Origin: Anaerococcus vaginalis ATCC 51170
Lineage (GTDB): Bacteria; Bacillota; Clostridia; Tissierellales; Peptoniphilaceae
Assembly (NCBI RefSeq): GCF_000163295.1
Contig: NZ_GG700527.1
Span: 653,022 to 704,646 of the forward strand
Reading direction: 5' to 3'
DNA length: 51,625 nucleotides
Shown here piece by piece: positions 13,932-41,707 of the stretch (its first letter is position 1; each line of letters starts with the position of its first letter). The position numbers and the translations under genes are program-made. The notes beneath the pieces are model-generated. The model was not told the DNA's origin, did not search any database, and saw only the letters and a program-made list of their open reading frames with translations.

Positions 13932-15326
13932 ATGAATTCTCTAGGTAAAAAAATACTTGATTTAATGGGCGGAGAAAATAACATAATCAAATTAACATAC
14001 TGCGCAACAAGGCTTAGGCCTACTTTTAAATCATATGATTTGGTTAAAGTTGATGAAATAAAGAAATTAGATGGTGTAGTTGGAGTCGTTGATGATAAGA
14101 ATAGATTTCAAATAATAATTGGAACCAATGTAGAAAGTATATATAATCAAATTATAGACAACTCAAATATTAATTCAGAGAAGAAAGTTGATATATTGAT
14201 AGAGGATGATTTGAAATTAGAGGAATCAAAACAAGGTATATTAGATAGATTCATATCGTTTGTTGTGAGTGTTTTTCGTCCTTTATTACCATTATTTGCT
14301 GGTTCTGGTTTGATAAGAGGTTTTACTATTTTAGCTATTGAATTAGGAATATTAGAAAGAGGAAGTACTACTGATATTATTTTGACATCAGCAGCAACAT
14401 CAGTTTTTAGTATTTTATCAATTTTAGTAGCTATGTCAACTGCTAAACAACTTAAATGTAGTATGCCAATTGCAGCAGCAATTATGGCTGCAGTATCAAT
14501 GCCAGGATTTCTGAATTTAATGAATGGCAATCCAGGTACAGTTGTTTCACTATTTGGTTTACCGGTGACAGTATTTGAATATTCTGGTCAAGTGATCCCA
14601 CCAATACTATTAGTATTTGTTCAGAGTAAAATTGAGAATAAGTTGAAAAAGGTTTTACCAAGTAGTTTACATCTTGTAGCAATCCCAACTATATTAATAA
14701 TCACAATGATTCCTTTATTAACAGTAGTTATAGGACCTGTTGGAAATTATATAAGTATTGGAATTGCAAAATTTGTAGAAGTAATTACATCTTGGAATAA
14801 CATAATTACAGGCGCAATTGTTGGTGGTATATGGAATATTTTAATAATGTTTGGTGTACATTGGGCACCTAATACAACAGTTATAATACCACAAATTTCA
14901 ACTACTGGATCTTCTTCATTGATAGCATATGGGGCTACAGCTAATTTTGGTATGGCAGGGGCAGCTTTTGCAATCTTTCTAAAAAGTAAAGACAAAAAAT
15001 TAAAGAATTTCTCAGTTTCATCAATAATGTCGGTATTCTTATCTGGAATTGTAGAGCCAGCAATCTATGGATTAGGAGTACCTTTTAAAACACCATTAAT
15101 TGCTGGTTGTTTAGGAGCAGCGATGGGTGGAGCTTTTATGGGAGCATTCAATGTAGTAGGATATGCCTTTGTTTTCGGAGGTTTAACTACAATACCTGCA
15201 TTTGCTGGACCAACTTTGTGGGCTTATTGTGTTGGATTAGCTATAGCTTTCTTTGGTGGCATGATATTGACATTATTATTAGGTTGGAAAGAAGAAAATA
15301 AAGTTAAAGGAGAAATAGATGAGTAA
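13932..15326 (+). CDS. PTS sugar transporter subunit IIBC, glucose/sucrose/beta-glucoside superfamily
   Basis: A 464-aa membrane permease that phosphorylates its sugar during uptake. The IIB domain occupies residues 1-75, with the phosphorylated cysteine in TYCATRLRP (Cys24). A linker follows, then the IIC domain from about residue 100 with about ten hydrophobic segments and the GVHWAPNT, GATANFGMAGAAFA and EPAIYGLGVPFKTP motifs of this superfamily. There is no IIA domain, so it must borrow IIA from elsewhere. It overlaps the next gene by eight bases. The substrate is unknown; the linked hydrolase suggests a ribosyl compound rather than an ordinary glucoside. Confidence 0.87.
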   Translation: MNSLGKKILDLMGGENNIIKLTYCATRLRPTFKSYDLVKVDEIKKLDGVVGVVDDKNRFQIIIGTNVESIYNQIIDNSNINSEKKVDILIEDDLKLEESKQGILDRFISFVVSVFRPLLPLFAGSGLIRGFTILAIELGILERGSTTDIILTSAATSVFSILSILVAMSTAKQLKCSMPIAAAIMAAVSMPGFLNLMNGNPGTVVSLFGLPVTVFEYSGQVIPPILLVFVQSKIENKLKKVLPSSLHLVAIPTILIITMIPLLTVVIGPVGNYISIGIAKFVEVITSWNNIITGAIVGGIWNILIMFGVHWAPNTTVIIPQISTTGSSSLIAYGATANFGMAGAAFAIFLKSKDKKLKNFSVSSIMSVFLSGIVEPAIYGLGVPFKTPLIAGCLGAAMGGAFMGAFNVVGYAFVFGGLTTIPAFAGPTLWAYCVGLAIAFFGGMILTLLLGWKEENKVKGEIDE

Positions 15327-16338
15327 AATATTAAATAGCTTAGCATATGGGGCAATAGGCGATGCGATGGGTGCTGCAACTGAAAATTTATCTTTTAATC
15401 AAATAAGAAAAAAATTTAATGGCAAAGTTCAAGAATTTTTAAAACCAGATGAAGCAAATTTTGCGCTAGGAAATGAAGCTGGACAAGTTACAGATGATTT
15501 TTCTCAAACTTATTTATTGTGCAGAAAAATCTTAGAAAATAACGGTGTTATAAATGAAAAAATTGTAAAATTAGCAATTTTGGAATGGTCAGATATGCCT
15601 CAATATTTTGATAGGTTTGCAGGCCCAACAACTAGAAGTGCAGTAAAAATGTTTAAAACAGGTGCTAAGGAATTAGAGAAAGCACCTGGAGCTGTAACTG
15701 TAGATTATGCTTCTAAAGCTACAAATGGATCAGCAATGAAAATTTCACCAGCTGGGCTTTTTAATCCGGGAAATCCAAATAAAGCTATTGAAGATGCCAT
15801 AAAAATAACTAGAGTTACGCATGATAATCATTTAGCGATTTCTGGAGCGTGTGCTGTAGCGTCTGCTATTAGCACTGGGCTTAAAGAAAATTCTAACATT
15901 AATGATATAATAAAGTCAGGTATAGAAGGCTCTATAATAGGAGAAGAGAAAGGAATACTATTATCAAGAGAAGTTGGTGGCGCTAGTGTGACTGAAAGAA
16001 TAAAGTTAGCAATAAAAATTGCATCACAATCTAAAGATAAAGATTCAATTATGAAGGATTTATATGATATAATAGGAAGTGGCTTGCATGTTTCAGAAGC
16101 AGTACCTATTTCCTTTGGCATATTAAAGGCTAATGAAAATAATCCTTTTGAAGCAGTTATTGATGCTGTAAATATTGGTTATGATACTGATACTGTGGCT
16201 ATAATAACAGGGACTATGGCTGGTTCAATATGTTATGAAATCAATGACAAAATTGAGAATATGATTGATATTTTAGAAGAAAAAAATAAAATGAGAATTA
16301 GAGAACTAGCGAGAGAAATAGAAAAAATAAATCTATAA
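15319..16338 (+). CDS. ADP-ribosylglycohydrolase family protein
   Basis: A 339-aa all-helical hydrolase of the ARH/DraG family, which uses two Mg ions to cleave N- or O-glycosidic bonds to ADP-ribose or related ribosyl groups. N-terminal SLAYGAIGDAMGAATE is the family start. GQVTDDFSQ (TDD at residues 58-60) and DTDTVAIITG (about 289-298) are the metal-binding motifs, both intact. ATGAGTAA places its start inside the end of the PTS gene, so the two are translated together. Acting on the PTS product, it would split an imported phosphorylated N- or O-riboside. That role is inference; removal of ADP-ribose from a protein is the main alternative. Confidence 0.85.
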   Translation: MSKILNSLAYGAIGDAMGAATENLSFNQIRKKFNGKVQEFLKPDEANFALGNEAGQVTDDFSQTYLLCRKILENNGVINEKIVKLAILEWSDMPQYFDRFAGPTTRSAVKMFKTGAKELEKAPGAVTVDYASKATNGSAMKISPAGLFNPGNPNKAIEDAIKITRVTHDNHLAISGACAVASAISTGLKENSNINDIIKSGIEGSIIGEEKGILLSREVGGASVTERIKLAIKIASQSKDKDSIMKDLYDIIGSGLHVSEAVPISFGILKANENNPFEAVIDAVNIGYDTDTVAIITGTMAGSICYEINDKIENMIDILEEKNKMRIRELAREIEKINL

Positions 16339-16351
16339 AAATAGGAGTATT

Positions 16352-17056
16352 ATGTCTTTATACAATAATATTTTCAAAGATCTTCGTGAAATGATACTAT
16401 CTAAAAAGTTTTACGAAGGTGACGTATTTTATTCAGAAAAAGAAATAATGGAGAATTATGGAGTTAGTAGAATAACTGCACGAAAAGCCATGGATAGACT
16501 TGAAAATGAAGGATTAATAAAAAAGTCCTCGGGAAAGCCAACAATTGTGAAATCAAATAAGGAAATACTTCAGATTAAAGTTTATGGAGGCTTTAGTAGG
16601 GATAATTTTTATCATAATGTAACCTCTAAGTTAATAGATTTAAGTATAATTATACCAAATGAAAAGATAAAATCAGAATTGAATTTAAATAATGATGATA
16701 AAGTTTATAAGTTAGTTAGACAGAGATTTATAAAGGGGGAGATTTATGGGCTAAACATAGCTTATATACCTTTAAAATTTATCAGACTAAAGAAAGATGA
16801 TTTTTATGACCGATATTCCTCTTTATATAAGATTTTTGAAAAAAATGGGATTATCGTAAACAATGCAAAAGAAAGTATAGAGGCAATAAAATCAGACAAA
16901 GATACAGCTCTAATATTGAGTATTGAAGAAGATTCTCCTTTATTGTATATTGAAAGAATAACAAGGGATAGAAAAAATAATATTGTAGAATATGTTGAAA
17001 TATTCTATAAATCTGACAAATATAAATACGAAGTTAATTTAAGCGAGATTAATTAA
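16352..17056 (+). CDS. GntR-family regulator, HutC type
   Basis: A 234-aa one-component regulator. The winged helix-turn-helix (residues about 5-70) contains YSEKEIMENYGVSRITARKAMDRLENEGLI. A UTRA ligand-binding domain follows (about 90-230), ending with the typical YIERI.RD.....VEYVEIFYKSDKY pattern. It is 13 bases after the hydrolase gene and probably cotranscribed. It most likely senses the imported sugar or its hydrolysis product and controls the operon through the palindrome at 13894. Confidence 0.88.
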   Translation: MSLYNNIFKDLREMILSKKFYEGDVFYSEKEIMENYGVSRITARKAMDRLENEGLIKKSSGKPTIVKSNKEILQIKVYGGFSRDNFYHNVTSKLIDLSIIIPNEKIKSELNLNNDDKVYKLVRQRFIKGEIYGLNIAYIPLKFIRLKKDDFYDRYSSLYKIFEKNGIIVNNAKESIEAIKSDKDTALILSIEEDSPLLYIERITRDRKNNIVEYVEIFYKSDKYKYEVNLSEIN

Positions 17057-18465: not shown

Positions 18466-18933
18466 ATGAATGATATTCCAACATTTACTCCAGAAGAAAT
18501 AGATGCAGTTGACTTACCAGACGGAGCAGTTCTTGATGGAACAGATATGCCTACACCTAGTGATTATCTATCTGCAAAACAAAAAAATTGTATACCACTT
18601 GGTGCTGATGAAATATATAAAGAGACATGGTCCTGGTTAAAACAGAGAAACTGTGAAAACTTAGTAAATCCAAGATTATTAGAATCCTACTCCCAGGCTT
18701 TTGCAAGATACATTCAATGTGAAGAAGCAATAAGTCAATTTGGACTATTGGGAAAGCATCCTACTACTGGAGGAGTTATTGCATCACCATTTGTACAGAT
18801 GTCTAGTCAGTTTCAAAAAACAGCTAATCTTCTATGGTATGAGATTTATGACATAGTCAAAGAAAACTGCACAGAAGTTTATGAAGACTATGGAGAAGAT
18901 ATGATGGAGAAATTACTAAGGCAAAGGAGGTAA
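18466..18933 (+). CDS. Phage terminase small subunit, P27 family (start codon lost)
   Basis: The product binds the phage genome and guides the large terminase to cut it. A 155-aa open frame covers the family core, with LNPRLLESYSQAFARYIQCEEA-like helices and YLSAKQKN. The frame extends without a stop back to 18361, where DKDGTYRGGRRVKAGGK gives the normal N-terminus. There AGGAGGTGATACT is followed by ATC instead of ATG, so the true start seems mutated. The protein may be made poorly from ATC or not at all. The large terminase gene is missing downstream, so it serves no packaging role now. Confidence 0.75.
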   Translation: MNDIPTFTPEEIDAVDLPDGAVLDGTDMPTPSDYLSAKQKNCIPLGADEIYKETWSWLKQRNCENLVNPRLLESYSQAFARYIQCEEAISQFGLLGKHPTTGGVIASPFVQMSSQFQKTANLLWYEIYDIVKENCTEVYEDYGEDMMEKLLRQRR

Positions 18934-20612: not shown

Positions 20613-20707
20613 AGCATTTTAGATGAATTTGATATAAACGGTCTCCAGATGACAATGAAAGAATTATTCTTCTTTGTTAAGGACAATACCCAGAGGTGAT
20701 AAAGAAA

Positions 20708-23665
20708 ATGACAACTATTAATATCGATTACAAAGGAGTATTAGATTACTTGGATAATAACCAGGAAATTCCATACTCTAATCCAGAGGAAGCCGGTGTA
20801 GATCAAGTAGAAAAGGATAGACTTCTAAAGGTTAAAGAAAAGGGACAAGCAGCAGTTGCTGAAATGAAGAAGATGGCAGCGCGTTGCGAGCAATTGTTTG
20901 GCTTGGATAAATGCTTGCCTATTTCATGGCTCGATGGCTCAAATACGAAGACCAGAAAGTATCTCTGGGCGCAGATAAAATATAAGGATTACACAGCTAA
21001 TCCTGCTAGTATTTCTTTGTTTGTTGAGAAAAACAATGGCATGACAAGATACCGCATCAGTTTAGAAATAAAGAATGATGGTGCCAATAAGAAAACGATG
21101 GCATCATACCATTCTCATTTAGATATTCCTAAAGAAGATGGAATGGTTTACGTGTCTGGAAGTAACGAGTGGGGAAATCCAGCAATCATCACAGATTCAG
21201 TTGACCAGATTAAAGCAAAGATTGATTCAGGCGAAATTCGAAAGGTGCAGCTTTGTGTATATGTTGAGTCTGTAGAGGATAAAACAAACGAACAGTACGA
21301 TGCTGATGTAATGGCCGCAGTAAAAAAGATCATTCCATATTACGAACATGTTATTGGAAAAGCCTCAACACCATCAACTGGGCGTGCATGGCTGTTAACC
21401 TGGAATCATGCAAACTGGGATTGGGCAAACTACAAAGCATGGTGTAAAGATACAAAGCTTGGAAATAAATTTATTGAGCCTTGGGCTTGTGCAAGTAAGC
21501 AACCTGTTGTTGGTGATGAAATTTTCTTAATAAAGACAGGTTCCAAACCTAGAGGAATTCTTGCTCATGGATATGTGGCAAAGGGAGCTTATGAAGCAGA
21601 TCACTACGATCCTGAAAAAGCTGCAGCAGGAGTTAAAGCTAATCATATAGATGCAGAATACGACTGGATTCAAGATTATGATACAGAACCATTGTTGATG
21701 CAGGATGACCTTAAAATAAAATTTCCTGACCAGCAGTGGAGTCCAATGGGATCTGGTATTGAGATCAAATCAAGTGTTCTACCAGAGTTGAAAAAGATGT
21801 GGCTAGAACTAATTGGTAAGAAAGCCGAAGACGTTATATACTGGCCAAGCTTAGAAGAATATGATCCGGGAATCACAAAAGAAAAATGGATGGAATTGCT
21901 TAAGGATCCAAATGTTACAAATGAAGATAACCTAAGAATGTTTAAGATGATAATTGAACTAGGCGGTGAATCTACATGTATTAATCTATCTGAAATCTAT
22001 GGTGGCTCAGATGTTTCATATAATAACTGGGGCCGTAACTTTGGCGAGAGAGTACATAGAAAGACGAATTGCCCACTTTTGTCTGATGGCGATCGTCACC
22101 ACTATTATGCGATTCCGTATGTCGGAAGATATATAATTGAAAAGGATAAGACTAGATATTCTTGGAAATTAAGAAGTGAGTTGGAGGAGGCGTTAAAGGA
22201 AATGGATTTATCTCACATTGATCTTACATCGGAGGAAGAATCAGTAATTGCATATGATAAAAATATGATCCTGTATGGCCCTCCAGGAACAGGTAAAACA
22301 TACAGCGCTGCAATTTACGCTGTGGCTATCTGTGATCAGCTTGCTCTGGATATTGTAAAAGCTATGGATTATGGCGAAGTGATGCTTCGTTATCGCGAGT
22401 TGTTAGCAACGGGTCGAGTTGCGTTTACTACATTCCATCAGTCTTATGGATATGAAGAATTCATAGAAGGTATCAAACCGGTATTAGATGACGGTTCTGA
22501 TATTGGGTACACCATTGAAGATGGTGTGTTTAAAAAGTTCTGTGATGATGCTCGTATACCAGAGAATAATGATATTCAGTGTTTTGGAGATTTGTGGATA
22601 ATTAGAAATAGAGCTGGAGATTCAGACGTGTCTTTTGATTATGAAGATTATCTACTAAAGAATGGTGTAATCATGGTAGAAACAAACGATGAATACGATA
22701 AGAGTCATTGCAACATGATTTCAAAAATGAAAAAGGGAGATTGGGTTGTACTGGGAAGAGGCTATAAGATCGCAGCACTGGGTGTGATTGATGATGAAGA
22801 AGTATCAGAGATCGACTGTGAACCGTTCCATTGGAAACGTGAGGTCAACTGGTTAGTAACCGGGTTATCAGCTACTTTCTCTGATATTGGCATTGTTGGT
22901 GGATGTTTCTCCAATTATGCAATCGCAAAATCAAAATATAAAGTTCAGAACTTCTACAAACTGATTAATGCTGAAAATAAAAAAGCCAAACCCCATGTAT
23001 TTGTTATTGATGAAATCAACAGAGGTAATATTTCTAAGATACTTGGTGAACTTATTACCTTAATAGAGGATACAAAACGTGAAAGTATGGATGAGCAGGT
23101 AGCGGCGGTTCTTCCTTATTCTGGTGAGTCATTTAGTGTTCCATCTAATGTGTATATACTCGGAACAATGAATACCGCAGACCGTTCTATCGCATTGATG
23201 GATACTGCCCTTCGTAGAAGATTTCAGTTTGTGGAAATGATGCCTGATGCAGATGTCCTTAGAGATATCGGTGCAGATAAGGTAGACGATCTTGATGTTG
23301 CAGCTATGCTTGAAAAGATAAATGAACGTATTACCTTCCTTTATGATAGAGAGCACACAATTGGTCATGCATTCTTTACGAAGCTTGCAAAAGCTCCAAC
23401 AATTGAAACCTTAAAGGTAATCTTTGAAAAATCTGTTATTCCACTCCTTCAGGAATACTTCTATGAGGATTATCAGAAGATTCAATTGGTTCTTGGAGAT
23501 AACGGAAAGACAGATCCTTCAATAAAGTTCATTCTTGATGAAGAGGTTAAAGTAAAAAATATATTCAAGGGCAATGCAGATGATGTTATTGATCTTCCTG
23601 ACAAGAAATACACCATCAACACTGAGGCATTTGAAAACCTTGAAAGTTACAAACAGATTATTTAA
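20708..23665 (+). CDS. mcrB: McrB-like GTPase with EVE domain, modification-dependent restriction
   Basis: A 985-aa motor and recognition subunit of a type IV (McrBC) restriction system, which cuts DNA carrying modified cytosines. An N-terminal domain (about 20-215) resembles others found on McrB proteins. An EVE/PUA-like modified-base reader (about 226-360, AWLLTWNHANWDW) follows, and then a winged-helix-like stretch. The AAA+ domain has Walker A GPPGTGKT (about 524), Walker B VIDEINRGN (about 765, the McrB signature) and TMNTADRSI (about 820). A second PUA-like segment (about 627-720) is inserted between the Walker motifs. The ATG at 20708 follows AGAGGTG; a GTG at 20696 is the alternative. 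It is intact, with mcrC 15 bases downstream. Confidence 0.88.
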   Translation: MTTINIDYKGVLDYLDNNQEIPYSNPEEAGVDQVEKDRLLKVKEKGQAAVAEMKKMAARCEQLFGLDKCLPISWLDGSNTKTRKYLWAQIKYKDYTANPASISLFVEKNNGMTRYRISLEIKNDGANKKTMASYHSHLDIPKEDGMVYVSGSNEWGNPAIITDSVDQIKAKIDSGEIRKVQLCVYVESVEDKTNEQYDADVMAAVKKIIPYYEHVIGKASTPSTGRAWLLTWNHANWDWANYKAWCKDTKLGNKFIEPWACASKQPVVGDEIFLIKTGSKPRGILAHGYVAKGAYEADHYDPEKAAAGVKANHIDAEYDWIQDYDTEPLLMQDDLKIKFPDQQWSPMGSGIEIKSSVLPELKKMWLELIGKKAEDVIYWPSLEEYDPGITKEKWMELLKDPNVTNEDNLRMFKMIIELGGESTCINLSEIYGGSDVSYNNWGRNFGERVHRKTNCPLLSDGDRHHYYAIPYVGRYIIEKDKTRYSWKLRSELEEALKEMDLSHIDLTSEEESVIAYDKNMILYGPPGTGKTYSAAIYAVAICDQLALDIVKAMDYGEVMLRYRELLATGRVAFTTFHQSYGYEEFIEGIKPVLDDGSDIGYTIEDGVFKKFCDDARIPENNDIQCFGDLWIIRNRAGDSDVSFDYEDYLLKNGVIMVETNDEYDKSHCNMISKMKKGDWVVLGRGYKIAALGVIDDEEVSEIDCEPFHWKREVNWLVTGLSATFSDIGIVGGCFSNYAIAKSKYKVQNFYKLINAENKKAKPHVFVIDEINRGNISKILGELITLIEDTKRESMDEQVAAVLPYSGESFSVPSNVYILGTMNTADRSIALMDTALRRRFQFVEMMPDADVLRDIGADKVDDLDVAAMLEKINERITFLYDREHTIGHAFFTKLAKAPTIETLKVIFEKSVIPLLQEYFYEDYQKIQLVLGDNGKTDPSIKFILDEEVKVKNIFKGNADDVIDLPDKKYTINTEAFENLESYKQII

Positions 23666-23680
23666 ATCGTGGTGAAATAA

Positions 23681-25009
23681 ATGGATAAATTGCTAGAGGT
23701 GCGAGAGTTCGATACAATTACTGGAAATGCTGATTTTGAAAATAATGAAAAATATAAATATCTTGATGTAGTGATATTCCATGACCTTGTGGAATTTATC
23801 CATGAATTCTCTGGAGATGAAGAAGATGCTGATGCATTGGATTTCATGCGCATTTCCTATAAACGTAATGTTGGTGATGTCATAACTATCAAGAATTACG
23901 TAGGCCTGATTCAGATGAATAATGGTTACCAGGTACATGTGCTTCCTAAGATTAGTTTTGATTCTGGCGAAGACGCCGGTAATAAGGAAACAAAAAGAAT
24001 CTTCATGAAGATGCTAAAAAGTATGAAGGATTTTCCTAGTAAGGTATTTAACTACGGCAACTTAAAAGTGGATCGCATGAATCTCTACGAGATTTTTATA
24101 AACATGTATCTACAGGAAGTACGACAGCTAGTTAAGCGTGGCATTAAATTTGCATATGTTGTACAAGAAGATAACCTCAAATTCTATAAAGGGAAGCTTC
24201 TTACATGTCAGCATATAAAAACAAACATTGCGCATAAGGAAAGATTCTATGTAGCCTATGATGAATTCCATCCTAATAGATCAGAGAACAAACTAGTGAA
24301 AGCGACATTGCTTAAATTACAGAAGTTGACAACGAGTGCTGAAAACTCAAAAGAGATTAGACAGTTGTTAACAGCGTTTGAAATGGTGGAACCCTCAACG
24401 AATCATATGAAGGATTTTTCACAGGTGAAAATTGATAGAAATACGAAAGACTATGAAATGCTTTTGCAATGGTCTAAGGTATTTCTGATGAATAAATCAT
24501 TTACAACATTTTCCGGCAAGAATACATCAAGAGCTCTGTTATTCCCAATGGAGAGTGTATACGAAAGCTATGTTGCGCAGCAGATGAAGAATGTGTTAAG
24601 ACCGGCAGGGTGGGATGTGTCAAGCCAGGACAAAGGATACTATTTGTTTATGGAGCCAAGACGTCAGTTTGCACTTAGGCCAGATATAGTTTGTAAGAGA
24701 GGTGATAGAACAGTAATCATGGATACAAAATGGAAAAGTCTCATTAATAGTGAGCGTGCCAATTATGGTATTTCTCATAGTGACATGTATCAGATGTACG
24801 CGTACTCTAAGAAATATGAAACATCAGAGATATGGCTTCTATATCCATTGAATGATGAGATGCGTGATCATTATGATATAGTATTTGAATCTGGTGATGG
24901 AACGACAGTTAGACTGTATTTTGTTGATCTGACACGTATGCCAGAAACGTTGGAAGAGTTGAGAGATAAGTTGGAGGTGACTGAGTTATTACAATCGAGG
25001 AAAAAGTAA
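23681..25009 (+). CDS. mcrC: McrC-like nuclease subunit of the McrBC restriction system
   Basis: A 442-aa partner that stimulates McrB GTP hydrolysis and cuts the DNA. The N-terminal half carries the McrC GLIQMNNGYQVHVLPKI segment. The C-terminal PD-(D/E)xK nuclease has RPDIV (about residue 333) and DTKWK (about 348), with the QMYAYS helix after it, so the active site is complete. It lies 15 bases after mcrB and overlaps the start of a decayed third gene. Codon choice is less AT-biased than in flanking genes, suggesting arrival from a higher-GC Firmicute. Confidence 0.88.
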   Translation: MDKLLEVREFDTITGNADFENNEKYKYLDVVIFHDLVEFIHEFSGDEEDADALDFMRISYKRNVGDVITIKNYVGLIQMNNGYQVHVLPKISFDSGEDAGNKETKRIFMKMLKSMKDFPSKVFNYGNLKVDRMNLYEIFINMYLQEVRQLVKRGIKFAYVVQEDNLKFYKGKLLTCQHIKTNIAHKERFYVAYDEFHPNRSENKLVKATLLKLQKLTTSAENSKEIRQLLTAFEMVEPSTNHMKDFSQVKIDRNTKDYEMLLQWSKVFLMNKSFTTFSGKNTSRALLFPMESVYESYVAQQMKNVLRPAGWDVSSQDKGYYLFMEPRRQFALRPDIVCKRGDRTVIMDTKWKSLINSERANYGISHSDMYQMYAYSKKYETSEIWLLYPLNDEMRDHYDIVFESGDGTTVRLYFVDLTRMPETLEELRDKLEVTELLQSRKK

Positions 25010-33442: not shown

Positions 33443-33623
33443 ATGGAAGTAAAAGTATTTGATAACATTACGGAAATAGTACGTTGCACGAAATGAACAG
33501 AAGCAGGCGATTCAAAAGAAGATAGCAACACTTCAAAATAAAATTCGTAAAGAAAAACAGCTTAATAAAAAGATAGACTTAAATGCTAAAATTAAGAAAT
33601 TAAAAGAATTGGAGGGGGATTGA
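33443..33623 (+). pseudogene. Deletion scar joining a helicase start to a DUF4391 end
   Basis: The start MEVKVFDNITEIVR (33443-33484, after AGAGGATG) is that of the SNF2-type helicase usual in this locus type. At about 33486 it passes into another frame, ARNEQKQAIQKKIATLQNKI to KIKKLKELEGD (stop 33621-33623). That is the C-terminal coiled coil typical of DUF4391 proteins. So some 3-4 kb, most of both genes, seems deleted. The surviving stop overlaps the next start as TGATG, showing that translational coupling once existed. Confidence 0.6.
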
Positions 33624-34432
33624 TGTATAGACCGTCAATGTATGACAAGCATGATGAAACGATGCTAAAATTTGTAGAAAAATTTAATGGAAGTTTGGTT
33701 TGCAAAAATATAGAAATGCGCCCAAACAAAGTTGAAACTTACGATAACGATGGAATATTCATAGATATTTATACGAATCAATCAATAGGTTACGATTGGG
33801 AGTATCGAGACAGGTATTTCGAGCATTGTAAACTGGAATTCGATAGTTTAGGTCAATATGAAAGAAAACTCGAAAAAGAATCGATCCAGATATCACTACA
33901 GTGTGACTCGACTGAGACAGGAATTGCTGTTGGATGGCATGAAGATTGGCTTCAGGAAGAAAGAGAAAGAAGAGCATTAAGGACAGATTCTTCATGGAAG
34001 GAAAATGCTTCAATAAGGTATACTAATAAATTTAAAATATATAGTTTTTCTAAGATAGATTTATTCAAGAATATGGTTGCAAGTGCAATGAGAATTCAAG
34101 AATATTCATCTAAAATATTTAAAATAATGACTGAAACAGTAAATAGTGGGATAGTTGTTTCCACAACTAATATGCCTCAAACAAAACAGTTATCATCACC
34201 CGAAGCAAAATCAAAGGGTAATGCGAAGACACTTGTTGATTTTTTTAAGAGTAAAGGTCTTGAAATTATTGATAAAAGACCAAATGGAGGCTGTCTTTGG
34301 GTGATAGGCAATGAAAATGAGATAGGTTTAGTGGTAAGAGAAGCTTGCAGAAAGTTTCATGTGGGTGGAAATTATGGAACTGAAAAAGAAATATGTCAAA
34401 AACAAGGTTGGTTTACTAGAGCAAGAAAATAG
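33623..34432 (+). CDS. Unrecognised protein of the type III restriction locus
   Basis: A 269-aa intact protein. The N-terminal 150 residues are rich in acidic and aromatic residues (NDGIFIDIYTNQSIGYDWEYRDRYF) and resemble no family I can name. The last 70 residues (ADTLVDFFKSKGLEIIDKRP-like, GGCLWVIGNENE, FHVGGNYGTEKE) resemble a small domain appended to various nucleic-acid enzymes. ATG 33623 follows GGAGGGGG; its start overlaps the stop of the deleted DUF4391 gene, and it ends eight bases before mod. It may be an accessory or nuclease-like factor of the restriction system. Function is inferred from place only. Confidence 0.6.
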   Translation: MYRPSMYDKHDETMLKFVEKFNGSLVCKNIEMRPNKVETYDNDGIFIDIYTNQSIGYDWEYRDRYFEHCKLEFDSLGQYERKLEKESIQISLQCDSTETGIAVGWHEDWLQEERERRALRTDSSWKENASIRYTNKFKIYSFSKIDLFKNMVASAMRIQEYSSKIFKIMTETVNSGIVVSTTNMPQTKQLSSPEAKSKGNAKTLVDFFKSKGLEIIDKRPNGGCLWVIGNENEIGLVVREACRKFHVGGNYGTEKEICQKQGWFTRARK

Positions 34433-34440
34433 GGGGGATC

Positions 34441-36291
34441 ATGGAAAAAATGAATTTTGAAACCGTTTCAGGCGAAGAAAAAAATATAGCATTGCTTGCC
34501 AGATTATTTCCAAATTGTGTAACTGAAGGAATGGACCAAAGTGGAAATCTTGTAAAAAAAGTTAATTTCGAATTGCTTAAACAAATGTTATCTGCAGATA
34601 TGGAAGATTTTTCAGAGAGTTATGAATTTACATGGCCTGGAAAAAGAGGAGCCATTGTCGAAGCAAACAAACCAATAAGAATGACCTTGCGACCTTGTAT
34701 AGAAGATAGTAAAAATTGGAATGATACAGAAAATCTTTATATTGAAGGAGACAATCTATCGGTATTAAAACTTCTACAAGAAAGTTATCTTGGTAAAATC
34801 AAAATGATATATATAGATCCTCCATATAATACAGGAAGTGATTTGATATATATAGATGACTTTGTTGTCGATATTGAAGAATATAATGCATCTATTGGTT
34901 TACATGATGATGAAGGACTAAAATTATATAGAAACACTGAATCAAATGGAAGATTTCATTCATACTGGTGTTCAATGATATATTCTCGTCTTATGATAGC
35001 TAGGAATCTTCTAGCTTCGGATGGTGTAATTTTTATTTCTATTGATGATAACGAACAGGCTAATCTTAAGAAAATATGCGATGAAGTTTTTGGCGAGTCT
35101 AATAATGTGGGAGAAATCATTAGAAAAACAAAGTCAATGACAGCTGATAATGGTAGTGGTTTTAATTTGCAACATGAAGTTTTATTAGTATATGCTAAGG
35201 ATAAAAATCAGATTGTTCTTCAAGGTGAACCCAAGGCATTTGATAATTATTCTAATCCAGATAATGATCCGAATGGAGAATGGTGTGCGGGCGACCCAAG
35301 TGCTAAAAGCGGTGGATCATCTACTTATTTTGAGATTGAGAATCCATATACTCATAGAAAGGATTTTCCGCCTATGGGTAGATATTGGGCTTTCTCAAAA
35401 GAAACATTACAGCGATATATAAGTGATGGAAAAATCAAATTTAAGAAGAATTATCGAGAAAAAGAAAGAGGATTCATATTTAAGCGTTATAAGAAAGATG
35501 CCACTAGCTTATTTGAACCAGTTAATAGCTTGTTTGGCATTGAAAATGAGTATATGAATCAAGCGGCAACAGTTGAAGTAAAAAAGCTTTTCGGAAATGA
35601 TGTATTTAGCTATCCTAAACCAGTTGTTTTTATACAAAAATTGATAAAGTATGCAACAGACAAGGAATCTATTATATTGGATTTCTTCTCAGGAAGTGCT
35701 ACAACTGCTCAAGCTGTTATGGAGCAAAATGCTGCGGACGGAGGAAATAGAAAATTTATTATGGTGCAATTACAGGAACAAGTTGATGAGAAAAAAGGAG
35801 CTTATAAGGCTGGTTACGAAACGTTGTGTGATGTGGGGAGAAATAGAATAAGTTTAGTCGCTGAAACCATTAATAAAGATATTGATGATGGATACAGAAC
35901 ATTTATCCTCGATTCTACCAATATGAATGATGTTTACTACAGACCATCAGAATACAGCCAAGAAATACTCTCAATGCTTGAATCTAATGTTAAATCTGAC
36001 CGTAATGACCTTGATTTATTGTTTGGATGTCTTCTTGAGTGGGGACTTCCTTTATCGCTTCCATACAGCTCTGAGCATATTGATGGATGTACAGTTCATA
36101 ACTATAACGACGGCGACCTTATTGCTTGTTTTGATAAGAATGTTCCGGATAGTGTGATTAAGGAAATTGCAAGGAGACAGCCTCTTCGTGCAGTATTCCG
36201 TGACAGCAGTTTTGAAAACAGTCCTTCAAAGATTAATGTTGGAGAAATCTTTAAATTGATGGCACCTGACACAAGAGTAAAGGTTATTTAA
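34441..36291 (+). CDS. mod: Type III restriction-modification methyltransferase subunit (Mod)
   Basis: A 616-aa N6-adenine methyltransferase that recognises the target and, with Res, forms the restriction enzyme. The beta-class order is seen: DPPYNTGSD (Asp126-Tyr129, catalytic) comes before the AdoMet motif ILDFFSGSATTAQAV (about 418-432). The target-recognition region lies between them (about 230-390). ENLYIEGDNLSVLKLLQ before DPPY is typical of type III Mod. Length and motifs are complete, and I see no simple-sequence repeat that would make it phase-variable. GGGGGG precedes the ATG; res follows after 12 bases. Confidence 0.92.
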   Translation: MEKMNFETVSGEEKNIALLARLFPNCVTEGMDQSGNLVKKVNFELLKQMLSADMEDFSESYEFTWPGKRGAIVEANKPIRMTLRPCIEDSKNWNDTENLYIEGDNLSVLKLLQESYLGKIKMIYIDPPYNTGSDLIYIDDFVVDIEEYNASIGLHDDEGLKLYRNTESNGRFHSYWCSMIYSRLMIARNLLASDGVIFISIDDNEQANLKKICDEVFGESNNVGEIIRKTKSMTADNGSGFNLQHEVLLVYAKDKNQIVLQGEPKAFDNYSNPDNDPNGEWCAGDPSAKSGGSSTYFEIENPYTHRKDFPPMGRYWAFSKETLQRYISDGKIKFKKNYREKERGFIFKRYKKDATSLFEPVNSLFGIENEYMNQAATVEVKKLFGNDVFSYPKPVVFIQKLIKYATDKESIILDFFSGSATTAQAVMEQNAADGGNRKFIMVQLQEQVDEKKGAYKAGYETLCDVGRNRISLVAETINKDIDDGYRTFILDSTNMNDVYYRPSEYSQEILSMLESNVKSDRNDLDLLFGCLLEWGLPLSLPYSSEHIDGCTVHNYNDGDLIACFDKNVPDSVIKEIARRQPLRAVFRDSSFENSPSKINVGEIFKLMAPDTRVKVI

Positions 36292-36303: not shown

Positions 36304-39300
36304 ATGAAACTACAATTTAGGCGTCAGAAATTCCAAGCAGATGCTGCAAAAGCTGTAGTTGATGTATTTGCTGGTCAGCCTTATTTGACTCCTTCTTATA
36401 TGATGGATAGAGGTTTAGGACATATCCAGCAATCATTAACAGATGAAGATGATTTCACTGGTTGGAGCAATCAAAAGATTGTACCAGAATTAAATGATAG
36501 ATTGATTCTGGAACATATAAATACAATTCAGAGAGCAAATCAGATTAAGCCTTCAGAGAAACTAGAAGGTAGATATAATCTGACAATTGAAATGGAAACT
36601 GGTGTTGGTAAGACCTATACTTACATTAAGACTATGTATGAGCTTAATCGTGCTTATGGCTGGAGTAAGTTTATAGTTGTTGTACCAAGCATCGCTATCC
36701 GTGAAGGTGTATATAAGTCATTTCAAGTGACACAAAATCATTTTGCTGAAGAGTATGGAAAAAAGATTCGTTTCTTTATATATAACTCTGCACAACTCAC
36801 CGAAATAGACCGCTTTGCATCAGATAGTTCTATTAACGTAATGATTATCAACTCACAGGCATTCAATGCAAGAGGAAAAGATGCAAGAAGAATTTATATG
36901 AAATTGGATGAGTTTCGTTCTCGTCGTCCAATTGATGTTATTGCAAAAACAAATCCTATCATAATCATTGATGAGCCGCAATCTGTAGAGGGTAAGAAAA
37001 CAAAAGAAAATTTAAAACAGTTTAATCCTTTAATGACTCTTCGTTATTCTGCAACTCACAAGTCAGATAGTATTTATAATATGATTTACCGTTTGGATGC
37101 TATGGAAGCCTACAACAAGCGTCTTGTTAAAAAAATTGCTGTTAAGGGGATTACAGAATCTGGTAGTAATGCAACTGAAAGTTATATTTACTTGGAAAGT
37201 ATAAATCTTTCAAAGGCTGCACCTACAGCGACAATACAGTTTGATTTTAAAGGTGCAACTAGCATTAGAAAGATTACTCGTATTGTTTCGGAGGGTTATA
37301 ACCTTTATGATAATTCTGGTCAGATGGAAGAGTACAAGCATGGATTTGTTGTTTCAAGAATTGATGGGCGTGATGATTCTGTAGAATTTATTAATGGTAT
37401 TAAACTTTATGCAGGTGACGTAATTGGTAAGGTATCAGAAGACCAGCTTCGCCGCATTCAAATTAGAGAAACAATCCTTTCTCATATTCAAAGGGAAAGA
37501 GAATTGTTCTATAAAGGCATTAAAGTGCTTTCACTGTTCTTTATTGATGAGGTTGCTAAGTATAAGCAGTATGATTCAACTGGTCAGCCGATAAATGGTA
37601 TTTATGCAGAGATGTTCGAAGAAGAATACAAGGATGTTATCAGTAATCTTCAAATTGGCATGGGAGAAGACGACTACATGAAGTATCTTTCTGCTATCTC
37701 TGAAGATAAGACACATGCTGGATATTTTTCTATCGATAAAAAAGGAAAGATGATTGATAGTAAGGCAAATGAAAAGCGAGAAAACTCTAAGGAAAAAATG
37801 TCGAATGACGTTGATGCTTACGACCTTATTATGAAAAACAAAGAGCTTCTTCTTGATAGAAATCCGAAGAAGTCTCCAGTGCGTTTTATCTTCTCCCATT
37901 CTGCACTTAGAGAAGGATGGGATAACCCTAATGTATTCCAGATTTGTACTTTGAAGCAGAGCAGTAGTGATGTTCGCAAACGTCAGGAAGTAGGACGTGG
38001 TCTCCGTCTTTGTGTTAATCAAGATGGTGAACGTATGGATACAAATGTGCTCGGCAATGATGTACATAGCGTAAATGTGCTTACTGTAATTGCCAGTGAA
38101 AGCTATGATAGCTTTGCTAAAGGTCTTCAGAATGAAATCGCAGAAGCAATTTCTGACAGACCAAAGGCAGTTACTACAGAATTGTTCATTGGTAAGGTAA
38201 TCAAGGACGACAAGGGTAATGAACGGGTTATTGATGGTGATATAGGTAGAGCAATCCATTTTGATCTTATTGTTAATGGCTACATTGATAGGAAGGGTGT
38301 TCTTACTGATAAATATTATGAGGATAAGGCTAATGGTGAATTGAAGGTTGCTGAAGAAGTAGCTGATTCTGCAGGATCTGTTATTGAAATTATTGATTCC
38401 ATTTATGACAGCAGAGCTATAAAGCCTGAAAATGCTCGTAGTAATAATATTGAACTTGAGGTTGATGAAAGTAAACTAGCTATGCCTGAGTTCAAGGCTT
38501 TGTGGGCAAAGATTAATTCTAAGTCTGTATATGTTGTTGATTTTGATACAGATGAATTGGTCAGAAAATCTATTGATTCATTAGATAGAAAACTTCGCGT
38601 TTCAAAGATTTATTTCAAGGTTGAAACCGGAGCTATGGAACAGATTAAATCAAAAGAAGACCTTGTGAGTGGTGAATCCTTTGTTAAGGAAAAATCTGCA
38701 AGCTACGGTAATGTTGTTGCTGCAAATTCTAATGTTAAATATGACTTGATTGGAAAGCTTGTAGATGAGACTGGACTTACAAGAAAAGCTGTAATCCAGA
38801 TTCTTCAGGGTATTCAGCTAGCAACCTTTAATCAGTTTAAGAACAATCCAGAAGAATTCATCATTAAGGCAGCAGCACTTATTAATGATGAAAAAGCAAC
38901 TGCTATAATTGAACATATTACTTACGATGTTATGGATGATAAATATGGAACTGACGTATTTACTGATCCTACAATCAAAGGTCGCTTAGGTGTAAATGCA
39001 ATGAAAGCAAAAAAGCATTTGTATGACCATATCGTTTATGATTCATCAAATGAGCAGGTGTTTGCTACTGAACTGGATACAAACACAAATGTAGCAGTAT
39101 ATGTTAAATTGCCAGACGGATTTTATATTTCAACTCCAGTTGGACATTATAATCCTGACTGGGCAATTGCATTTTATGAAGGAACCGTTAAGCACATTTA
39201 TTTTGTTGCAGAGACAAAAGGTTCCATGGATTCAATGCAGCTTCGTTTAATCGAAGAATCAAAGATTCACTGTGCAAGAGAACACTTTAAGGCAATTAGC

Positions 39301-39366
39301 AATGGTGAGGTTATTTACGATGTTGTTGATAGCTACAAGACACTCCTTGATATGGTAACGAAGTGA
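36304..39366 (+). CDS. res: Type III restriction enzyme, Res subunit
   Basis: A 1020-aa helicase-nuclease that moves along DNA from unmodified Mod sites and cuts. Walker A is METGVGKTYTY (about 97-107), motif II IIIIDEPQS (about 218-226), motif III RYSATHK, and motif VI VRKRQEVGRGLRL (about 557-569). The C-terminal PD-(D/E)xK nuclease has NPDWAI and FVAETKGS (about 952-980). All are intact. AAGGAG precedes the ATG, and it forms an operon with mod. A broken DUF262 gene follows directly. Confidence 0.92.
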   Translation: MKLQFRRQKFQADAAKAVVDVFAGQPYLTPSYMMDRGLGHIQQSLTDEDDFTGWSNQKIVPELNDRLILEHINTIQRANQIKPSEKLEGRYNLTIEMETGVGKTYTYIKTMYELNRAYGWSKFIVVVPSIAIREGVYKSFQVTQNHFAEEYGKKIRFFIYNSAQLTEIDRFASDSSINVMIINSQAFNARGKDARRIYMKLDEFRSRRPIDVIAKTNPIIIIDEPQSVEGKKTKENLKQFNPLMTLRYSATHKSDSIYNMIYRLDAMEAYNKRLVKKIAVKGITESGSNATESYIYLESINLSKAAPTATIQFDFKGATSIRKITRIVSEGYNLYDNSGQMEEYKHGFVVSRIDGRDDSVEFINGIKLYAGDVIGKVSEDQLRRIQIRETILSHIQRERELFYKGIKVLSLFFIDEVAKYKQYDSTGQPINGIYAEMFEEEYKDVISNLQIGMGEDDYMKYLSAISEDKTHAGYFSIDKKGKMIDSKANEKRENSKEKMSNDVDAYDLIMKNKELLLDRNPKKSPVRFIFSHSALREGWDNPNVFQICTLKQSSSDVRKRQEVGRGLRLCVNQDGERMDTNVLGNDVHSVNVLTVIASESYDSFAKGLQNEIAEAISDRPKAVTTELFIGKVIKDDKGNERVIDGDIGRAIHFDLIVNGYIDRKGVLTDKYYEDKANGELKVAEEVADSAGSVIEIIDSIYDSRAIKPENARSNNIELEVDESKLAMPEFKALWAKINSKSVYVVDFDTDELVRKSIDSLDRKLRVSKIYFKVETGAMEQIKSKEDLVSGESFVKEKSASYGNVVAANSNVKYDLIGKLVDETGLTRKAVIQILQGIQLATFNQFKNNPEEFIIKAAALINDEKATAIIEHITYDVMDDKYGTDVFTDPTIKGRLGVNAMKAKKHLYDHIVYDSSNEQVFATELDTNTNVAVYVKLPDGFYISTPVGHYNPDWAIAFYEGTVKHIYFVAETKGSMDSMQLRLIEESKIHCAREHFKAISNGEVIYDVVDSYKTLLDMVTK

Positions 39367-39368
39367 GG

Positions 39369-39780
39369 AAGACTATTTATTCCAACAAAAATAGAAGTTA
39401 ACAAACAAAGTGTGGAGGCATTACTTGGTAGTGGAAGAGTAAAACCCTTTGTTATTCCAGAATATCAACGCTCTTATGCTTGGACTGATGAACAGGTAGA
39501 AATGCTGTTTGAAGATTTATGAGAATTCATGGCTGCTAGTAGAGAAACTGAACGTGAACGTTCGTATTTCTTGGTAATATCGTTGCATATGAAAATAAAG
39601 ATTGTGAGCAAGAAATAATTGATGGTCAGCAGCGTATTACGTCTTTATTACTGTTGTTAAGAGCTACTTACACAAAATTAGTTGTTAGTCCTGTAGCGGA
39701 ACGTAATTAATCAGCAAGTATTGAGCTATGTCTAGACAGTAGCATTGGCTACTGTGATTTATATATTATTGTAACTGATT
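39369..39780 (+). pseudogene. Truncated DUF262 (GmrS/DndB-like) restriction gene
   Basis: The frame reads KIEVNKQSVEALLGSGRVKPFVIPEYQRSYAWTDEQVEML, then a TGA, and after a frame change EIIDGQQRITSLLLLLRATY. IPxYQRxYxW and DGQQR are the DUF262 nucleotide-binding motifs of GmrSD-type modification-dependent nucleases. It has a stop, at least one frameshift, and ends by about residue 130 of a much longer family. A small CAGTAGC/GCTACTG hairpin (39737-39754) follows. Confidence 0.7.
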
Positions 39781-39870
39781 ATGCTAATTATTAATATCAT
39801 CTTAATGTTATTATAATAGCTTCGTATAAAGTTATTATTTAAAAATCTAATTGTATTAGGAGGCGTATAT

Positions 39871-40677
39871 ATGGGGCAAATTATTGAGTTTCCAAATGAT
39901 AAAAAATCAAAGGATAAAATTCGAAAGCTTAAAAAAACTTTGGAAAATCTTGTTTTTGAAAGGGACAATCTTAAATATATAATTTGTGAAAATATAAAAA
40001 CTGAATATATGCTTATTTTTGGAAGTCTTGAGTACAAAATCTATAAAGCTTATTGTAAATATCTTCGTTTGAAAAGAAAAAAAGATATGATTCAAGCGAA
40101 AAAGAATCGTCAAGAAAAAATAAATATGGAAGTTATCGATAGAAAGTTAGACTTAGAATTTACAGAATATAAGAAAAAATTAAATGAAAAAATTGAAGAA
40201 ATTAATACTGCATTAAGGCGTTCAAAATCTGAAATATTATCTGATGATGATGAAAAACGCCTAAAAAAATTATATAAATATATTGTAAAGAAATTACACC
40301 CAGACATAAATTTATCGATAACAAATTCTGAAAAAGAGTTATTTTATAATGCTACTGAATTTTATAAAAATGGGGATCTCAAATCTTTACAAATTATTTT
40401 TGATATAGTTTGCAGTGAAGATATGAAAGATGATATAGGTTTGGCTGGTAAATCTTTGGAAGAAGAGGTAATAAGACTAACTGATTTAGTAAATCTAATT
40501 AAAAATGACATTGAGTTGATTAAATCTATGCCTCCTTATACTTGGAGTATTTACGTGGAAGATGAGAAGAAAAAGTTAGAGAGGTTAAGTCAGTTAGAAA
40601 AAGATTTAAAGAGTTTTGATGACGCATTACGAACGCAAGAAGAATATATAAATAATTTAATTAAGGATGAGATATGA
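39871..40677 (+). CDS. J-domain-like coiled-coil protein (first gene of a three-gene operon)
   Basis: A 268-aa cytoplasmic protein. Residues 10-115 are highly charged and predicted helical or coiled coil. Residues about 125-190 look like a J-domain: DEKRLKKLYKYIVKKLHPDINL with the key HPD at 143-145, followed by a helix. J-domains call Hsp70 chaperones to a client. A second coiled coil follows (200-268). AGGAGG (39859-39864) precedes the ATG. The stop overlaps the HIRAN gene start (ATGA). The operon sits directly behind the restriction genes, but composition matches the AT-rich backbone. Role unknown; a chaperone-recruiting defence or DNA-damage factor is a guess. Confidence 0.72.
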   Translation: MGQIIEFPNDKKSKDKIRKLKKTLENLVFERDNLKYIICENIKTEYMLIFGSLEYKIYKAYCKYLRLKRKKDMIQAKKNRQEKINMEVIDRKLDLEFTEYKKKLNEKIEEINTALRRSKSEILSDDDEKRLKKLYKYIVKKLHPDINLSITNSEKELFYNATEFYKNGDLKSLQIIFDIVCSEDMKDDIGLAGKSLEEEVIRLTDLVNLIKNDIELIKSMPPYTWSIYVEDEKKKLERLSQLEKDLKSFDDALRTQEEYINNLIKDEI

Positions 40678-41075
40678 ATAATTTAGAAAAAAAAGATCAG
40701 AGAGGAATAATTGAGTATCTTTTGAATAAGGAAGTAGGAATTGATTTACCAAAACCTTTTGAGCGTGATATTTATCTTTTTGATACTTATGTTGCTGGGA
40801 CAACACACATTAAAGGAATTGAAAATATTTTATCTTATATCAAAGATGGTGATAAACTAGTTTTTTATCGTGAGCCAGAAAATGAACATGATCCTCAAGC
40901 TATTAGAGTAGAAACATTGAAAAAAGATAAAATCGGCTATGTCCCTCGTCAAGATAATATTATTTTCTCTAGACTTATGGATGCTGGAAAAATTCTTTTT
41001 GCTAAAGTTATTGATAAAGAAATACGAGGTAAATGGCTTAAGATAAAAATCAAAATTTATCTTCATGAAAGTTAG
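40674..41075 (+). CDS. Stand-alone HIRAN-domain protein (second gene of the operon)
   Basis: A 133-aa protein. Residues about 30-130 form a HIRAN domain: FDTYVAGTTHIKGIENI, FYREPENEHDPQAIRVE and IGYVPRQDN are the family's conserved strands. HIRAN domains bind the 3' end of single-stranded DNA at damaged or stalled forks and occur fused to SWI2/SNF2 helicases and nucleases. Here it stands alone. It shares four bases with the J-domain-like gene and is 11 bases before the third gene, so the three are one operon. Confidence 0.8.
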   Translation: MNNLEKKDQRGIIEYLLNKEVGIDLPKPFERDIYLFDTYVAGTTHIKGIENILSYIKDGDKLVFYREPENEHDPQAIRVETLKKDKIGYVPRQDNIIFSRLMDAGKILFAKVIDKEIRGKWLKIKIKIYLHES

Positions 41076-41086
41076 GCTAATAAAGT

Positions 41087-41707
41087 ATGCACTATAAAAA
41101 TAAATGGATTTGCAATAATATATGTATAAGTGATATCAATGATATGAATTTTGAAATTTGCTCAGGAGAACACTGTTTTATTATTGGACATCATATAAAA
41201 GAAAAATATATATTAAAAGAGGCTATCAATAGACTTGTAACAGCAGGCTTTGATTATTTTAATATTTTTGGAGAACAAGCTGATTTATGGTCAGAAGTTA
41301 TAATTACGAAAGAAAACCAAAAAAGACAAATACAAGTAGAGGCAAGCAAAATTGATAGAATGAGTATGTCTTATAACCTTGCTATGTTGGCGACTTTGAA
41401 ACCGGAATCTACAAATTTTGTTATTTCTGATGATGAATATTTTACAGAGTATCTTATAGAAGATCTACATGATATATTCAGTGAAAAGTCTAAATTTACA
41501 CCATTTGATTGGAAAAAATTTAAAGATGGATATGAATTTATTTATCATAAAAAAGATGCTATTGTTAGTATATCAGGGGATATAGCAATTGGATTTCTAA
41601 AAAAAGAAAAAGTATTTAATAGCATAGATAAAGCGTTTAGATATAAACTTTTTGATGGTAAAAGTTTTAATGAGATTTGGGATGAGATTTCAAAAACATT
41701 ATATTAA
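41087..41707 (+). CDS. Unrecognised protein, third gene of the J-domain/HIRAN operon
   Basis: A 206-aa protein of unknown family. The stretch HCFIIGHHIKEKYILKEAI followed by GFDYFNIFGEQADLW looks like alternating strands and helices of a Rossmann-like fold. A second such unit (TNFVISDDEYFTEYLIEDL) follows about residue 115. No signal peptide or membrane helix. The ribosome site is weak, fitting translation coupled to the upstream gene. It ends before a bidirectional terminator. It may be the effector or regulator of the operon; I do not recognise it. Confidence 0.55.
   Translation: MHYKNKWICNNICISDINDMNFEICSGEHCFIIGHHIKEKYILKEAINRLVTAGFDYFNIFGEQADLWSEVIITKENQKRQIQVEASKIDRMSMSYNLAMLATLKPESTNFVISDDEYFTEYLIEDLHDIFSEKSKFTPFDWKKFKDGYEFIYHKKDAIVSISGDIAIGFLKKEKVFNSIDKAFRYKLFDGKSFNEIWDEISKTLY

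Follow-up and report, generated by a model that had tools for sequence, protein, structure and literature searches.

Three consecutive genes on the + strand, at positions 39871–41707, were analysed in a stretch of 51,625 nucleotides (nt) from Anaerococcus vaginalis ATCC 51170 (contig NZ_GG700527.1, hereafter the window), whose host genome is 1.89 Mb. Gene 1 (39871..40677, +) encodes a J-domain protein of 268 amino acids (aa), with an internal J domain within long helices, and is preceded by an AGGAGG ribosome-binding site read from the sequence (39858..39863, +). It overlaps by ATGA with gene 2 (40674..41075, +), which encodes a stand-alone HIRAN protein of 133 aa. Gene 3 (41087..41707, +), for an optional third protein of 206 aa, follows after a gap of 11 nt. 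The first two genes are called hereafter the J-HIRAN pair. All three frames are open, and the trio is as intact and tightly coupled as a preliminary description of this DNA had held. The ratios of non-synonymous to synonymous substitution rates (dN/dS) relative to A. lactolyticus were 0.19 (gene 1), 0.11 (gene 2) and 0.25 (gene 3), so that each gene seems to be under purifying selection. Relative to Anaerococcus obesiensis, the closest named relative for J-HIRAN (97% identity among the rows of the J-HIRAN tree), they were 0.17, 0.74 and 0.42, in a very close pair with few substitutions.

The J-domain region of gene 1 covers approximately residues 115–182 (40213..40416, +), with limits that we chose on an AlphaFold2 model, and comprises helices 125–142, 152–166 and 170–182. 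The HPD (His-Pro-Asp) motif, residues 143–145 (40297..40305, +; read from the sequence), sits between the first two of these helices, and long helices 8–79 and 232–265 enclose the whole region in the same model. This agrees with the J-like domain between coiled coils proposed at the outset. As in DnaJ/Hsp40, the motif is located between two helices, whereas the enclosure of the J domain by long helices is a difference from these proteins. The match of gene 1 to the Pfam DnaJ family was weak (E 0.014, 16 bits, for a curated cut-off of 27.8), the relative at locus L129 exceeds the cut-off with 29.7 bits, and the Pfam scan of gene 1 detected no DnaJ region other than the J domain. A profile of 54 J-region rows matched solved J domains of the PDB, with a best E of 1.6e-4; Foldseek and VIA-align searches with the J model of gene 1 returned merely helical look-alikes. 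HPD is kept in 79 of the 80 named loci described below, the sole departure being L047, presumed to be the same gene as L023, and in 49 of 56 other loci, a set that overlaps the named one. The two lone J genes found without HIRAN, both in one genus, have HPE instead of HPD. HPD-bearing J domains stimulate Hsp70, and the window's genome contains one full-length Hsp70 gene. A PADLOC match of gene 1 to HEC-01B (E 0.0019, 16 bits) was dropped, being probably due to the coiled coils.

The HIRAN domain of gene 2 spans residues 34–131 (40773..41066, +), with a PF08797 E of 9.7e-21 and a score of 73.8 bits for a gathering threshold of 24.7, which confirms that the gene encodes a stand-alone HIRAN, as was first described. 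It keeps the core motif, of which R..N..D..AI is common with HLTF. The eukaryotic proteins HLTF and Rad5 contain the same domain, but within Snf2 helicases, and the profile match of gene 2 to HLTF is weak (E about 0.01). HIRAN domains in the studied cases bind DNA (PMC7804152, PMC8262856). That of yeast Rad5 is reported to bind single-stranded DNA with no need of a 3'-hydroxyl, and to bind PCNA too (PMC7804152).

To define the neighbourhood of gene 2 elsewhere, genome contigs were searched with the HIRAN protein as bait, and the best 80 of 411 relatives were kept as the 80-locus set. These named loci (L031–L110) overlap the numbered genomes (L017 and L032, for example), and the counts are not independent. 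A J gene was found upstream of HIRAN in all 80 kept loci; it is cut by a contig edge in L064 and L090, masked bases intervene in L073, and at a few loci it is in pieces. Recurrence as a unit in unrelated genomes, suggested in the preliminary description as support for the trio, is therefore observed for this pair. HIRAN matches were present in 41 of 199 related genomes (own included), 42 matches in total, with J adjacent in 38. Conversely, a search with the J protein in 291 genomes of the class gave matches in 15 (own included), and HIRAN was adjacent in 13 of the 15. On viral contigs a J homologue was located upstream in six of six HIRAN matches, one of them just a C-terminal piece of J. J and HIRAN constitute a near-invariant two-gene unit.

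Gene 3 behaves differently. It was found, entire or as a remnant, in only 12 of the 80 loci, and a sample of 398 genomes of the phylum yielded it just once, in the genome of the window itself. The three-gene system proposed in the preliminary description was therefore rejected as a unit; the part that stands is the recurring pair, to which gene 3 is an optional addition. Wherever found, gene 3 adjoins the pair, as seen in the window and in all 14 fetched loci; some loci of Peptoniphilaceae carry it, in L043 it lies between J and HIRAN, and in three of the 14 fetched loci (L025, L028 and L030) it is broken or partial.

The N-terminal domain of gene 3, residues 1–135 (41087..41491, +), is Rossmann-like and may resemble the C-terminal domain of Mur ligases. 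The central ATP-binding ligase domain of these enzymes is missing from gene 3, which at 206 aa and without Pfam match has only the 135-residue Rossmann-like part and a small C-terminal domain. The latter, residues 149–201 (41531..41689, +), is related to a 70-aa phage protein (phrog_27650, E 1.8e-8) and aligned pairwise by hhalign with phi891591_0021, an open reading frame (ORF) of a Streptococcus suis phage, at E 2.1e-11. In three S. suis phage records just the C-terminal quarter of the query was matched. A small S. suis phage protein related to this domain is encoded beside a terminase gene at L163:3959–4171. No Pfam family matched gene 3 at E≤1, in agreement with the earlier remark that it resembles nothing familiar; it had no plasmid or viral-contig matches and no match in PADLOC-DB 2.0.0, and Foldseek gave nothing at E≤0.001 in PDB or BFVD. 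A sequence search of the PDB returned scattered weak matches, the best (E 0.0037) being a TNF-family protein.

J-HIRAN is a mobile module of the accessory genome, found in Bacillota and a few other bacteria, and many of its carriers are anaerobic. Within the genus its distribution is patchy, HIRAN matches being present in 11 of 30 genomes, and the flanks of the pair, inspected by eye, differ among many loci. A tree of 71 J-HIRAN rows was weakly resolved in its deep part and was used for close pairs only. The pair has been transferred horizontally in recent times. Lacrimispora amygdalina (L071) and Caproiciproducens galactitolivorans (L083), which belong to different families, have 9.8 kb in common at 96% identity and a further 4.4 kb at 97%, including a row HsdR-McrB-McrC-x-y-J-HIRAN on the same strand (families named from L071). 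The downstream half of this island contains, by eye, apparent XRE, ImmA/IrrE-like and Y-family polymerase genes; sets of this kind are also seen near J-HIRAN in L054, L055 and L059.

To determine whether restriction-modification (R-M) genes are found near the pair more often than expected, HsdM (PF02384), Mod-type (PF01555), McrC (PF10117) and GmrSD (PF03235) genes were located in 49 genomes. The number expected under random placement was estimated at four radii, with rounded genome sizes and with contig ends ignored. The survey included 50 HIRAN loci, of which 46 are J-HIRAN loci and four have no J. Within 10 kb, eight of the 46 loci had an HsdM, Mod-type or McrC gene, for 1.32 expected (P 3e-5), and ten of the 46 when GmrSD was counted too, for 1.49 expected (P 2.5e-6). 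After removal of the own genome and of repeated sites, the figures at this radius were 6 of 42 against 1.14 (P 9e-4), and 7 of 42 against 1.28 with GmrSD (P 2e-4). The enrichment in defence islands that had been put forward as a second check thus holds for the pair with respect to R-M genes. By type, for the 50 HIRAN loci, observed and expected numbers were 3 and 0.07 for McrC, 5 and 0.72 for Mod-type and 3 and 0.20 for GmrSD. Tyrosine integrases, taken as a control, showed no excess (at least 1 of the 50 HIRAN loci, for at least 1.57 expected).

Individual loci illustrate the variety of these neighbours. At one and the same J-HIRAN site in genus g22, the genes after HIRAN are McrB-McrC in G079 but GmrSD in G112. 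In L062 only 15 nt separate the end of an HsdR-type gene from J, and in G094 the few kb downstream of the pair contain a PDC-S06 gene and a type III Mod gene. On viral contig L129 (95–7990), HIRAN and a J gene with an N-terminal extension are preceded, on the same strand, by two PADLOC REase_II genes, which we would call LlaJI-like. At L182:11670–18919, starting about 1.6 kb downstream of J-HIRAN, a PDC-S06 candidate is accompanied by a type III Mod gene and by an ORF read as Res.

In the window itself, several restriction genes lie upstream of the operon, as context and not as part of the module. The type III methyltransferase Mod (34441..36291, +; PADLOC, residues 1–616 on 2–621 of 621) and restriction subunit Res (36304..39366, +; residues 1–1019 on 1–987 of 989) are both full length, contrary to the earlier statement that they are remnants. 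A GmrSD (DUF262) remnant, in two pieces with stops, lies between Res and gene 1 (about 39418..39782, +; PF03235). Further upstream are long open frames for a McrB-like protein of 989 aa (20696–23665, +; AAA_5 1.7e-14, partial) and for McrC, 442 aa (23681–25009, +; PF10117 3.1e-89 over 2–318 of 318). Of the broken flanks initially described, the GmrSD fragment is real, whereas Mod, Res, the McrB-like gene and McrC do not fit that picture. Just before Mod, an ORF of 270 aa (33620–34432) weakly matches the end of ZorC (E 2.5e-5) and has no Pfam match. A phosphotransferase system (PTS) transporter, an ADP-ribosylglycohydrolase (PF03747 4.6e-54) and, by eye, a GntR-like regulator stand in a row at 13932–17056.

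The J protein is modular, with N-terminal additions in some relatives. An ADP-ribosylglycohydrolase (PF03747) is N-terminal to J in L092, L097 and L106, and DUF6508 in L070, L097 and L106; the stretches added in L099, L129, L185 and L193 have no Pfam name. The ADP-ribosylglycohydrolase-J fusions are encoded at L092:8170–9996, L106:7624–9996 and L097:7–2307. In a single contig of a metagenome-assembled genome (L079), J and HIRAN are fused in frame. On viral contig L131 (7229–7951), the apparent start of a P27-like terminase small subunit gene, recognised by eye, continues in frame as the last part of a J gene, which is followed by HIRAN; a similar terminase small subunit (PF05119) is present in the window at 18466–18933, about 21 kb from the operon.

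Taken together, the strict pairing, the J-HIRAN fusion and the kept HPD motif suggest that HIRAN brings the J protein to DNA, and DnaK with it. Given its mobility and its above-chance proximity to restriction genes, the pair would most likely target complexes on foreign or restricted DNA. We favour, tentatively and as quite possibly correct, a reading in which J-HIRAN is an accessory defence-linked module, HIRAN binding DNA and the J protein bringing DnaK. The HIRAN protein would bind DNA, probably single-stranded DNA or DNA ends, and the coiled-coil J protein would stimulate host DnaK (Hsp70) there through its HPD motif. DnaK might then dismantle protein complexes on the bound DNA, either replication or end-protection complexes of phages or stalled enzymes. 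The pair appears to travel with restriction systems and to settle beside them (type III, McrBC, GmrSD, HsdR and others). It would most likely contribute to protection from foreign DNA, one possible route being an action on the DNA ends that restriction produces. Gene 3, with its Rossmann-like domain and a small C-terminal domain common with phage proteins, would be an optional accessory. A bolder version, which we consider rather unlikely, makes of J-HIRAN a new class of immunity: HIRAN, as a sensor of DNA ends, would mark invading or restricted DNA, DnaK recruited by HPD would strip or inactivate the proteins protecting or replicating that DNA, the J protein would be a modular hub, and the phage-related domain of gene 3 may be a decoy or a sensor.

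Several observations weigh against a defence-linked role of this kind. At the level of the proteins, the J domain of the window scores under the Pfam DnaJ cut-off, and the exact HPD is lost in five HIRAN-paired J genes (HSD in L023, HTD in L028, HPS in L132, NPL in L164 and HPL in L165). Specificity of HIRAN for 3' ends is not general, and the binding of single-stranded 3' ends attributed to HIRAN in the preliminary description is not transferable as fact, given the behaviour of the Rad5 domain (PMC7804152). Neither a nuclease nor an obvious effector is present in the pair. Four HIRAN matches had no J; they are weaker matches, two of them with internal stops. As for mobility, the J protein of L071 matched no phage or plasmid record. 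As for the neighbourhood, many J-HIRAN loci lie amid ordinary metabolic genes, in 36 of the 46 none of the tested R-M or GmrSD genes is closer than 10 kb, and HsdM alone showed no excess (1 of the 50 HIRAN loci, 0.66 expected). The excess also depends on the radius: with GmrSD counted and the own genome and repeated sites dropped, it was 3 for 0.67 expected at 5 kb (P 0.03), 7 for 2.42 at 20 kb (P 0.008) and 10 for 5.55 at 50 kb (P 0.04).

The pair could alternatively be an accessory cassette for DNA-damage tolerance, with HIRAN on stalled forks or gaps, J and DnaK remodelling replication or repair complexes of the host, and R-M genes as fellow cargo of the islands. Such a role, somewhat unlikely in our opinion, would fit the action of the HLTF and Rad5 HIRAN domains at replication forks (PMC7804152), as well as the apparent Y-family polymerase cluster recognised by eye within about 10 kb in 8 of the 80 loci, a raw count. 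It would fit less well a pair that is patchy among the related and class genomes sampled above, and that is enriched near R-M genes and not near integrases. Control of restriction is another explanation, according to which the pair would sense breaks of the cell's own chromosome and DnaK would remove translocating restriction enzymes, a restriction alleviation making these enzymes safe to carry. Several of the neighbouring systems have a subunit, type III Res, McrB or HsdR, that we take to be a motor, and enzyme-bound broken ends would suit as a signal for HIRAN. The HsdR-type gene almost touching J in L062 and the same-strand row of L071 and L083 point in the same direction. Nevertheless, most loci are devoid of a tested R-M gene within 10 kb, even if R-M systems elsewhere in the genome could serve, and we regard this explanation as improbable.

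The fusions bring to mind a role in handling ADP-ribosylated proteins under phage attack, where J would bring the chaperone to modified, misfolded proteins. Apparent ADP-ribosylglycohydrolase genes are seen by eye near the pair in L130 and L132, and both host systems combining ADP-ribosylglycohydrolases with chaperones and ARPP-HIRAN pairs have been predicted by Iyer et al. 2022 (PMC9503650). However, the fusion is rare, with three cases among all loci examined for J extensions, and the one ADP-ribosylglycohydrolase noticed in the window adjoins a PTS gene at a distance of about 24 kb. We consider a role of this kind very unlikely. Equally small seems the chance of a toxin-antitoxin or abortive-infection module patterned after HipA-HIRAN operons, in which gene 3 or the J protein would be the toxin. 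In HipIN and HipL, HIRAN proteins have been proposed to serve as antitoxins and to sense phage DNA (PMC8262856), but here gene 3 is missing from most loci, gene 2 is too short for a HipS-like domain (about 100 aa), and no kinase was recognised by eye in neighbour clusters of at least three loci. Finally, J-HIRAN might be an ordinary co-chaperone pair with no DNA role, HIRAN being used as a protein-binding fold, as the affinity of Rad5 HIRAN for PCNA would allow (PMC7804152); the R-M enrichment and the transfer within an island argue against it, and we give it little credence. Among these readings, the defence-linked module remains the one that we prefer.

If it is correct, protein remodelling would be linked to restriction, in a small two-gene cassette open to testing. 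The DnaK-DnaJ machine is used by cells and phages alike, and no immune or repair module is known to us that centres on the pairing of a dedicated J protein with a DNA-binding domain. J-HIRAN is thus a candidate defence or DNA-repair device that moves between genomes, combining a chaperone recruiter and a likely DNA-binding protein. No description of the pair was found in the literature searched, in which only the best-ranked matches were considered for broad topics, and an earlier mention is possible. Even if its role were in repair or in restriction control, a strictly kept mobile pair that our searches did not find described would be worth naming.

Among known systems, HipIN and HipL resemble J-HIRAN in having a bacterial HIRAN in an operon of one or two genes, and their HIRAN has been proposed to recognise phage DNA ends or replication intermediates (PMC8262856). 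Their HIRAN is however joined to a HipS-like domain and accompanied by a HipA-type kinase (PMC8262856), whereas here it is stand-alone and accompanied by a J protein. Gene 2, with 133 aa and HIRAN at residues 34–131, does not accommodate a HipS-like domain, and a HipA-type kinase was found neither among the Pfam-scanned genes of the window nor by eye in the neighbour clusters of at least three loci. The PADLOC candidate PDC-M03B is matched by residues 30–116 of gene 2 over positions 128–215 of 250 (E 2.1e-13), in its HIRAN part only; genes 1 and 3 did not match the PDC-M03 profiles at E≤1, so that neither a full-length PDC-M03B match nor a PDC-M03 partner was found. Because these other defining features are missing, J-HIRAN is considered apart from HipIN, HipL and PDC-M03. 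ARPP-HIRAN is likewise a two-gene HIRAN neighbourhood, but the description of ARPP as a beta-sheet protein in which Cys and Gln are conserved (PMC9503650) fits neither the helical gene 1 nor the Rossmann-like gene 3. The ADP-ribosylglycohydrolase systems with peptide-binding chaperones of the same report recall the J fusions of L092, L097 and L106 (PMC9503650), although DnaJ is absent from its main text. The HIRAN-HipA clusters near diDNase genes similarly place HIRAN in islands close to defence genes (PMC11706625). Their partners are HipA and a dinuclease, unlike the J protein here, and DnaJ is absent from the main text of that report as well (PMC11706625). J-HIRAN would accordingly be a HIRAN-based candidate conflict module, set apart from those of the HipA-type and ARPP reports by its J partner.

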